Below the pieces are notes generated by a model that searched no databases, was not told the DNA's origin, and saw nothing but the letters and a program-made list of their open reading frames with translations. DNA of 64,000 nt from Stygiolobus caldivivus (GTDB lineage: Archaea; Thermoproteota; Thermoprotei_A; Sulfolobales; Sulfolobaceae), in NCBI RefSeq assembly GCF_019704315.1, contig NZ_AP024597.1, forward strand, positions 1,798,001-1,862,000. Direction: 5' to 3'. Within the stretch, counting starts at the first letter, position 1. Each line of letters begins with the position of its first letter. The translations under genes and the position numbers were made by a program. Positions 29,024 to 32,045 of the stretch are shown one piece after another.

Positions 29024-29725
29024 CTATACTAAATTTTGTATAGTTTCAACTTTATTTTTAATAAAGGTAGTATTTAGATGTGTAATTAAATATTGTGGAG
29101 ACATACCTTGAATAAATGAAGGATTATACATGTATCCAATAAGTAAATACGTTCCCTTATCTCCGGATATTAAAATAAGTGTTGGAATATGTGGTGGGTT
29201 CCCCATATATGCAGCAGCTTGGAAAAAGCCACCTTGAGCCCATTTCTCTACTACGTATTCCTTAATTAATTTGTAATAATTAGGGAAATCCTTTTGTATT
29301 TGATTTAAACCATATTGTATATAATTACTTATTTGAGAACCGGATGCAGTTGCATTAAGATATCTATTATAAAGATATAAAAATCTGAAATGGATAGAAG
29401 AATTCGGCTTAAAAGATAGAAATATAAGGCTAGGCGTATTAGGATATACATCATAAGGATCTGAATAAGAAAAATTATAGTAAATCTTACCATAGTGAGA
29501 AAGAAATGCATATAAAACCCAGCTATCCGCTGCACCGAAAGGACAGCCATACCATGAAATAAATATGATACATGAAATCCCAGCCTGAGCTAAATCTTGG
29601 TTGCTAACCTTGATGAAAGAATTAAGAGGAACTTCGATCGGATATAATAAATAAGGAAGAATTAAAAATATTAAAAATATAATTACCAATGGAAGAACGA
29701 ACAAGCGCATATTAATTTTTCTCAT
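29024..29725 (-). CDS. DUF929 family membrane-anchored protein
   Basis: A 233-residue protein with one N-terminal hydrophobic anchor (about residues 8-28), so it is probably exposed outside the membrane. The segment FISWYGCPFGAADSW (about 55-69) is the hallmark of DUF929, a Sulfolobales family with a thioredoxin-like look (CPFG instead of CxxC). Start is uncertain: the TATA box is only about 15 bp before the ATG at 29725, so the in-frame ATG at 29710 is a good alternative for a leaderless mRNA. The function is unknown. Confidence 0.82.
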   Translation of the reverse strand: MRKINMRLFVLPLVIIFLIFLILPYLLYPIEVPLNSFIKVSNQDLAQAGISCIIFISWYGCPFGAADSWVLYAFLSHYGKIYYNFSYSDPYDVYPNTPSLIFLSFKPNSSIHFRFLYLYNRYLNATASGSQISNYIQYGLNQIQKDFPNYYKLIKEYVVEKWAQGGFFQAAAYMGNPPHIPTLILISGDKGTYLLIGYMYNPSFIQGMSPQYLITHLNTTFIKNKVETIQNLV

Positions 29726-29736
29726 CTTATTATATC

Positions 29737-29761
29737 CGTATAAAACTTACTTAAGTAAGTT
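29737..29761 (-). promoter_or_regulatory. Promoter with 18-bp perfect palindrome upstream of the DUF929 gene
   Basis: Reading the minus strand, the palindrome AACTTACTTAAGTAAGTT (29744-29761) abuts a TATA-like TTTTATA (about 29738-29744). A perfect 9+9 palindrome overlapping the BRE/TATA site is well placed for a dimeric repressor or activator. No binding protein can be named. Confidence 0.45.
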
Positions 29762-29866
29762 ACTCCTATTTTTACTTAATTATGTAAAAATTACAAAAAT
29801 CATATAATATAGAAAGCGATAAGCAAAGCATATAAAGTTAACAATTATCTAGAGACTAATACAAAT

Positions 29867-30220
29867 TTAGTAGTGGTAATTCTCTTTGTGAGTAGGCTTC
29901 TCGATCTCGCTAAGTTCTCCTCTTATTAGTTTAGCTACAACTTCCTCTACAGTAATTTAAAGAGTTAAATATATTTTTACTTACCTTGTTTTTAACAGCC
30001 TTACACCATGCATACCTATTTCGATTACAATAATAGAATCAACTGTCTTATCTAAAGCTGATTTAAGCATATATACCTCTTGTTACACTTACTTTTAGTG
30101 CGGGTTCTTATTTTTTCAATTAAGTGCGGTTTACCATCCTTTTATTTCAAAAATTACCGCTTCAAATCCCTATCCTGGCTCATCTACTATTCCATTAGTG
30201 ACTGGTATAGCTACTTTCAT
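29867..30220 (-). pseudogene. Decayed NifX/NafY-type (dinitrogenase FeMo-cofactor family) gene
   Basis: The minus strand still reads a full-length protein in pieces. From the ATG at 30220 it gives MKVAIPVTNGIVDEPG then a TAG; after a frame change GKPHLIEKI is legible (about 30128-30100) and then a LKVSVTRGIY stretch in a third frame; from 30070 MLKSALDKTVDSIIVIEIG; after two further in-frame stops ITVEEVVAKLIRGELSEIEK, ending HKENYHY and a stop at 29867. Start, end and spacing fit the small NifX/NafY/YiiQ-like family (PF02579), about 117 codons. It is clearly dead: several stops and at least two frameshifts. Confidence 0.75.
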
Positions 30221-30240
30221 CGATATCAATTTTGATATCG
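30221..30240. repeat. Inverted repeat directly upstream of the NifX-like pseudogene
   Basis: Two perfect 9-bp arms, CGATATCAA and TTGATATCG, with a 2-bp spacer, ending exactly one base before the pseudogene ATG. It may be a relic operator of the dead gene. The 180 bp beyond it up to the next stop codon (30241-30422) show only AT-rich sequence. Confidence 0.5.
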
Positions 30241-30422: not shown

Positions 30423-32045
30423 TTAAAATAAGACAGACTGATAATCTGGTTCTATTTTAACATTTATCACATTAATTCTATTGGGATCTATATTTAATAA
30501 CGCGCTCTTAAGATCTGAGACCCCTACTACGGTAACAGCCTTTAGTTCTCTTTCTAAAACATTATCATAATTCTCACTGCGCGGAGTCTTACTTATTGTT
30601 GGTATATCGGAAGAAGCAACGTCTATAGCGGTAGCTCCATTATCGTTCATTACTAGTAGGATACCTTTTGACTTATTAATACGGGTGCTTAGTATTCCTA
30701 GGTTGGAAATTACTCCTTCTACATCAGTAATAGCAATATTATGGGGGTCATTTGACCTTACTATACCCCCTATAGCTATTGTACGTTCAAGCAGGGATTC
30801 ACTGGTGATCCACGTATAAGGTCTCTCGATTGGTAACCGGACAAAATCTAGAGTAGGAGCTGTTAGGTCAATAAAAACTTTTGAGAACTGATATTGTTGT
30901 ATTACCCTGACCACATCATAGGGCCACAAACCTCCGTGCGAATTTAATATGTAAATTTTTCTATATGTTTTTATTTTCTCTTGAGAGCCTCTCTTTATCG
31001 CCTCCTTAAATTTAGATTTCATCACAGTCAAAAGTTCCCTGAGGAATAAGCTAGTATCCGCGACTAACGGTACGTGAGCCATAAATACTTTACCTATATC
31101 TTCGCCGTCTATATTGTTATGAACCAAATACCCCTTAATCTTCATAGACCAACCTGCAGTTGTCAGCTGTGTGAATCTGGTACCTATGGCTAATATTACA
31201 TCTGCATCTTCAAGTAATTTAGAACCTTCGCTAGTCGCAAAAAGTCCTAATCCTTCTCCTGCACTTAGAGGATGAGATGCGGGTATGGAGCCTTTAGCCC
31301 TGAACGTGGTAATAACCGGGATATCTAATAGTTCGGCTAACTCTATTAGTTCCTTAGTTGCTCCTGAAGCAAGTACCCCATAGCCGGCTACAATAACTGG
31401 GTTTTTGGAATTCCCTAGCAGTTCACCTATTTTTGCAACAGTGTTTTTATCAGGGGTCCTTTTCTCAGGCTTTTGCTCTGCAGGCGAAAGGGGATATGCC
31501 TTAAGCTTAAAGAGGTCTTCTGCTATCTCTATATATACTGGCCTGTTTCTGTTACTTAAAGTTTCTTTATATCCTTTCTCTACTGTTACTGTAATTTCTT
31601 CTATACTTACTACCCTTTCTCTCAACTTAGTTATTGGGGCTAAAATAGAAGATACGTCATCCGGTGTACGTAGTTCTCCTATTCTACTCCTTCCAGTATC
31701 TCTGTAAGACCGTACTGTAGATATCACGAGAAGGGGCTGTGAATCTATATAAGCCTGGGCAATTACATCAGTTGCTTCTAATACCTTGTTACCTGGAACT
31801 ATTAATGCAGTGCCCACGGTATTATTTTCCCTCGAGTAGGAATCAGCCATCAAGATGGCTTCTCTTGCTGAGGTAGTAACATTTGCATTAATCTCGTATT
31901 GCTTAAGCCTTTCAAAAATAAATTCAGGAGCACTATAAGGTATAAAAACGTCTTTAATTCCAAGTTCTTTTATTACATAAGCTAATGCTTCATCCCCTTT
32001 CATTTCTTTACCTACTGTTTCCTCTTTCCTTTTTGGTTGGCTCAC
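30423..32045 (-). CDS. Thiamine-diphosphate enzyme-like protein (acetolactate synthase fold), atypical active site
   Basis: A 540-residue protein with the three domains of the acetolactate synthase/pyruvate oxidase family: Pyr-type domain (about 15-180), central domain (about 195-340, NPVIVAGYGV and GTRFTQL) and PP-type domain (about 360-540). The residue aligned with the catalytic Glu of the usual RHEQGA motif is Ala60 in TTSAREAILMAD, and the ThDP motif GDG...NN appears as TDVEG...NDNG. It may be an unusual ThDP enzyme, a decarboxylase of the Glu-less type, or a non-catalytic protein. The GTG start is 26 bp from a TATA-like TTTATACTT, so leaderless. Confidence 0.75.
   Translation of the reverse strand: MSQPKRKEETVGKEMKGDEALAYVIKELGIKDVFIPYSAPEFIFERLKQYEINANVTTSAREAILMADSYSRENNTVGTALIVPGNKVLEATDVIAQAYIDSQPLLVISTVRSYRDTGRSRIGELRTPDDVSSILAPITKLRERVVSIEEITVTVEKGYKETLSNRNRPVYIEIAEDLFKLKAYPLSPAEQKPEKRTPDKNTVAKIGELLGNSKNPVIVAGYGVLASGATKELIELAELLDIPVITTFRAKGSIPASHPLSAGEGLGLFATSEGSKLLEDADVILAIGTRFTQLTTAGWSMKIKGYLVHNNIDGEDIGKVFMAHVPLVADTSLFLRELLTVMKSKFKEAIKRGSQEKIKTYRKIYILNSHGGLWPYDVVRVIQQYQFSKVFIDLTAPTLDFVRLPIERPYTWITSESLLERTIAIGGIVRSNDPHNIAITDVEGVISNLGILSTRINKSKGILLVMNDNGATAIDVASSDIPTISKTPRSENYDNVLERELKAVTVVGVSDLKSALLNIDPNRINVINVKIEPDYQSVLF

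Follow-up and report, generated by a model that had tools for sequence, protein, structure and literature searches.

A dead Ta1041-like PF02579 gene in Stygiolobus caldivivus KN-1 and the candidate PadR operator at its start codon

Is the interrupted NifX/NafY-like reading frame in the 64,000-nucleotide stretch of KN-1 DNA analysed here (the window) a truly dead gene, and what might the intact protein have done? The account we favour strongly is that a PF02579 gene of the Ta1041-like clade, probably PadR-repressed and putatively metal-handling, has died in KN-1, where its candidate operator has outlived it. The pseudogene itself is an ordinary gene loss, and the candidate PadR regulon is the interesting part. 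The dead gene drew attention to an operator-like site that is conserved and to a PadR regulator, both common to intact copies. They offer a testable handle on what Ta1041-like proteins, so far uncharacterised, do in the archaea of acid hot springs.

A PF02579 gene with several disabling lesions

The KN-1 genome (G000 among the genomes compared) is a single contig of 2,958,410 bases. The peptides that the original prediction had quoted across three frames are all present on one strand, between an ATG and a terminal stop codon (Table 1). Frameshift-tolerant alignments with two intact relatives gave scores of 296 and 300, against shuffle maxima of 36 and 40 (25 shuffles each). Relative to these intact orthologs the gene is disabled by three frameshifts and three stops, two of them aligned in frame and the third within an inserted codon. 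The read-through in these alignments is identical to the protein of the other Stygiolobus genome (G001) at 67/115 positions and to that of G013 at 71/113. Comparison by eye with 20 intact relatives showed that 18 of the 24 invariant columns are kept and six are changed or missing, and that the C-terminal motif (PTH, then a His-containing end) is still legible. An HMM built from 20 intact relatives found the stretch at E = 3.4e-33, reading through eight stops in one frame. The broken frame scored 20.1 bits (E = 0.0016) against the Pfam PF02579 model, below the cut-off of 26.3 because the frame is interrupted. The decay of a NifX/NafY-like gene is thus borne out by the family HMM, the PF02579 model and the alignments, and there is next to no doubt that the locus is a pseudogene, derived from a gene of the PF02579 (NifX/NafY-domain) family.

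KN-1 has no other intact copy, as the family profile recovers only the pseudogene at E <= 0.1. A second weak PF02579 match (16.5 bits, below the cut-off) lies within a 644-aa frame, and a search of plasmid DNA was without match.

Table 1. Coordinates of the pseudogene, its lesions and its surroundings in the window
Feature	Position	Strand	Remarks
nifX-like pseudogene (PF02579, Ta1041-like clade)	29867..30220	minus	start codon 30220-30218, terminal stop 29869-29867
Pseudogene lesions, stops	in-frame at 30172-30170; extra stop codon near 29981; stop near 29957	minus
Pseudogene lesions, frameshifts	near 30139-30133, 30105, 30074-30071	minus
Inverted repeat CGATATCAA-TT-TTGATATCG	30221..30240		probable PadR operator; includes GATATC-N6-GATATC (30222-30239), set 1 nt ahead of the dead start codon
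TPP-enzyme gene (acetolactate-synthase-like), intact syntenic anchor	30423..32045	minus	86% identical to its G001 counterpart, which adjoins the intact nifX-like gene
DUF929 gene (PF06053), intact, anchor on the other side	29024..29725	minus	71% identical in G001
Short AT-rich junction, 141 bases	29726..29866		between DUF929 gene and pseudogene

Indels are typical Nanopore errors, and Nanopore reads went into the KN-1 assembly. That an intact gene was misread through assembly or base-calling error is nevertheless extremely improbable. The assembly is a hybrid of Illumina (912.7 Mb after filtering) and Nanopore data (PMC8483694), and by our own division the Illumina depth is ~300-fold. The damage goes beyond indels to the three stops and the six altered invariant columns, the nonsynonymous divergence of the pseudogene is raised, and the neighbouring genes are intact. 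Three frameshifts together with stops and lost invariant residues, in an assembly of this kind, make sequencing errors implausible.

Position, orthology and age of the loss

Comparison with G001 showed that an intact nifX-like gene of 122-125 residues adjoins the TPP-enzyme gene there as in KN-1, with a DNA match of 281 columns between gene and pseudogene. The two are orthologs by position, which confirms the proposed loss relative to kin. In the family tree the read-through groups with G001 (80/67, not a starred branch), on a branch of 0.69 vs. 0.16 for G001. One could suppose that the KN-1 gene was a transferred or duplicate copy, never the Stygiolobus ortholog, which decayed as a stranger: the read-through is slightly nearer to the G013 protein than to that of G001, and the sequences of the Saccharolobus group do not stay together in the family tree, suggesting transfers. 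The matching neighbour and orientation, the long DNA match and the position in the tree all speak against such an origin and leave it very unlikely. Inactivation took place in the KN-1 lineage, later than its split from the other Stygiolobus.

The loss had been called fresh. Given the order of events just described, the word holds in a relative sense only; the age of the loss cannot be fixed, because synonymous sites have reached saturation between KN-1 and G001, and dating by synonymous divergence was abandoned. The Jukes-Cantor nonsynonymous divergence between pseudogene and G001 gene is 0.295 over 112 readable codons, compared with 0.172 for the intact nifX-like pair of G001 and G013. Four pairs of neighbouring genes from KN-1 and G001 gave 0.069-0.21, a fifth (nadB) being left out because its frame was wrongly set. 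Together with the branch lengths, these figures suggest that constraint was held for most of the divergence and lost late. The loss thus seems recent on the scale of the genus rather than fresh.

In G001 three genes separate the nifX-like gene from the DUF929 gene, one AIR-synthase/HypE-like and two of the radical-SAM/SPASM type, and the KN-1 window shows no trace of any of them. The radical-SAM/SPASM pair (TIGR04053 and AhbC/NirJ-like; L025:8255-10416), which adjoins the intact nifX-like gene of G001, is without a KN-1 match at thresholds of E <= 1e-60 and 1e-30; it may bear on cofactor synthesis in these two genomes, an anaerobe/aerobe pair. A functional tie between the nifX-like gene and this pair was rejected as a general rule, the pair being convergent with the gene in G001 and distant from it elsewhere. 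Against this rejection, the four genomes that have no pair at E <= 1e-30 (G000, G005, G022 and G023) also have no intact nifX-like gene; six further genomes have the pair without the gene. The sole close KN-1 copy of the AIR-synthase/HypE-like gene (L071:7588-8612; G000:139588-140612) is split by a frameshift into two open frames, which possibly reflects another recent loss or an error in the sequence. A close homolog lies in one open frame in 25 of the 31 Sulfolobaceae genomes, with one partial.

Repeated loss within the Sulfolobaceae

Relatives largely keep the gene. It is intact in 21 of the 31 Sulfolobaceae genomes, always above the PF02579 cut-off, broken at full length in two (KN-1 and G018) and without a full-length relative in eight (G005, G016, G017 and G019-G023), although G020 and G021 have weak matches in open frames (17.5 and 14.9 bits). 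A search of 214 genomes from the order gave matches at E <= 1e-15 in 23, all of them Sulfolobaceae. The alignment used here (A1) holds 20 of the 21 intact genes, that of G029 (L005) being left out because it is close to that of G030.

In the G018 pseudogene (L067:9261-9620) the start codon is gone, and two stops and six frameshifts interrupt the frame. G014 and G015 keep the gene intact at this locus, beside a shared peroxiredoxin-like gene, and other genes occupy the matching interval in G016. The G018 loss is independent of that in KN-1. A small protein lost so repeatedly would be dispensable, unlike a core iron-sulphur factor. Thermoplasmata genomes (L061, L062, L065 and L066) also encode relatives, at 38-51% identity, a possible sign of exchange between acidophiles.

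Nature of the intact protein

The AlphaFold2 model of the M. javensis homolog, built with nine relatives, has a NifX/NafY-type fold with a pLDDT of 89.9, falling below 50 in the last 12 residues. Its best PDB match by Foldseek is Ta1041 of Thermoplasma acidophilum (2RE2; TM 0.88, 50% identity), followed in order by the archaeal MJ0327 and MTH1175, PH0822, the orange protein (ORP), NifX and NafY. 2RE2 is also first by sequence profile (E = 1.3e-44). Ta1041 is thus the closest solved structure by both measures and also comes from a thermoacidophile, whereas the KN-1 gene is broken. A search of open-licence papers, a weak guide to absence, found no function for Ta1041 and returned only unrelated medical papers.

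The NifX and NafY cofactor carriers of nitrogenase share the domain family and fold (PDB 9IAN chain F and 1P90). However, none of the 31 Sulfolobaceae genomes encodes a PF00148 (nitrogenase component) protein at E <= 0.001, a search that gave matches in four of 14 control genomes. None of the 20 aligned Sulfolobaceae proteins has a cysteine, and all 20 carry two to nine histidines in their last 25 residues. On these three grounds the protein is not a nitrogenase factor, and a link to nitrogen fixation is excluded as far as the 31 genomes go. The predicted metal-cluster-carrier type stays plausible from the fold and is weakened by the same lack of cysteines and of nitrogenase components. The His-rich tail suggests binding of metal ions rather than of a classical Fe-S cluster. 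Most likely, the intact protein was small and soluble, with a NifX-type domain and a disordered His-rich tail, and would have bound or buffered metal, as ions or simple iron-sulphur species.

The thioferrate storage protein IssA of Pyrococcus furiosus (PF2025) has the same domain followed by a C-terminal tail. The IssA clade was drawn by pI and a glycine-rich tail, in which the single cysteine is located (PMC5524996). The Sulfolobaceae tails are instead His-rich and Cys-free and, by the features named there, fall outside that clade. A 'NifX family protein' was reported as 1.18-fold up in cold-shocked Cuniculiplasma (PMC7285479). Apart from these two sources and PMC8351635, the open-licence papers found on NifX in Sulfolobales, on Ta1041 and on PadR in these archaea were incidental or unrelated, a thin basis for a negative.

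A perfect palindrome at the dead start codon

The inverted repeat before the KN-1 pseudogene is perfect, with 9-bp arms over 20 bases, though the gene behind it is broken. Among the intact loci, those of G013 and G027-G030 have GATATC-N6-GATAT a few bases upstream of the nifX-like gene, and that of G001 has a degenerate form. No palindrome precedes the gene in G014 and G015, where it is intact, or in G002, G006 and G024-G026. Four of the genomes with the palindrome (G027-G030) are close relatives.

Pattern matches were found at 34 places in seven genomes. The 24 viewed in context include all 11 full GATATC-N6-GATATC palindromes (both-strand matches); the other ten places are one-strand matches in G013 and G027-G030. 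Ten of the 11 full palindromes lie no more than 20 nt before a start codon. The gene that follows is padR in six cases, glycosyltransferase-like in two (KN-1 and G001), winged-helix-like in one (G001) and the nifX pseudogene in one (KN-1). The remaining full palindrome falls within a reading frame of G027. Genome-wide, the pattern is not over-represented, with 45 strand hits in the seven genomes vs. 89 for the reversed control, and this count does not support a large regulon. The case for the palindrome therefore rests on its position and its recurrence across genomes.

The perfect arms beside a broken gene could also mean that the locus still works, either as a regulatory RNA or as a decoy that titrates PadR. 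No conserved RNA was seen, a 20-bp site can persist by chance in a young pseudogene, and the upstream region outside the palindrome has no extended DNA match to G001. Continued function of either kind is accordingly given little credence, and we keep to the reading of a candidate operator that has outlived its gene.

Link to a PadR regulator and a candidate regulon

Full palindromes head a padR-ABC ATPase-ABC permease array in six genomes (KN-1, G001 and G027-G030). The KN-1 array, at L074:845-2957 (G000:2217845-2219957), includes padR at G000:2219549-2219938, and the GATATC-N6-GATATC with which it opens is perfect. In the padR genes of KN-1 and G001 the start codon was taken just after the palindrome; a longer frame begins three codons earlier, inside it. 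The arrangement resembles that of PadR-family operons with transporters, in which ABC ATPase-like and permease-like genes follow a PadR-like gene whose start carries a palindrome. Bacterial PadR/LmrR operators have the form ATGT-N8-ACAT, whereas the core here is GATATC-N6-GATATC.

Neighbouring genes were compared for 20 of the 21 intact loci, G025 being left out for its short contig. No neighbourhood is conserved across the whole Sulfolobaceae: padR recurs in Metallosphaera and Aramenus, and elsewhere genes are common within genus groups only. In eight of the 20 loci (G003, G004 and G007-G012, all Metallosphaera or Aramenus), padR lies directly upstream of the nifX-like gene; neighbourhood clustering groups seven of these padR genes, and that of G011 was found separately. 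The encoded PadR proteins have histidine-rich first residues. GATATC repeats precede padR in six of these eight loci, with a spacer of 8 nt rather than 6 nt; none was seen in G012, and the stretches viewed exclude that of G009.

From the arrangement of sites and genes, a link of the nifX-like gene to PadR through the palindrome is somewhat favoured. The simplest reading is a PadR repressor that would control both the nifX-like gene and the operon in which it is itself encoded. Most likely, a PadR-family regulator would have bound GATATC-N6-GATATC at the gene start and repressed nifX-like expression, with a matching palindrome serving the regulator's own operon. In KN-1 the coding sequence has decayed, and the palindrome and the PadR operon are still present. 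No PadR site shared with a NifX-like gene was found in the open-licence papers searched, and little weight is placed on that absence.

More tentatively, with chances slightly short of even, a Sulfolobaceae PadR regulon, recognisable by GATATC-N6-GATATC next to the start codon, may join the His-tailed, cysteine-free NifX-like protein, the ABC transporter and a His-rich winged-helix protein in an undescribed metal/redox response module of thermoacidophiles. Its NifX-like part would have been lost repeatedly (KN-1, G018 and others), with an orphan operator left in KN-1.

Small winged-helix-like proteins with His/Trp-rich ends are encoded at L086:2412-2744 (G001) and L089:2579-2871 (G013), each with a palindrome-type site just upstream; the last base of the pattern differs in the G013 site. 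At L081:2743-2765 (G000) and L087:2394-2415 (G001), the palindrome stands 4-5 nt before a glycosyltransferase-like gene that is divergent from a GH15-like gene. Glycosyltransferase-like and GH15-like genes are also located near the nifX-like gene in G027-G030.
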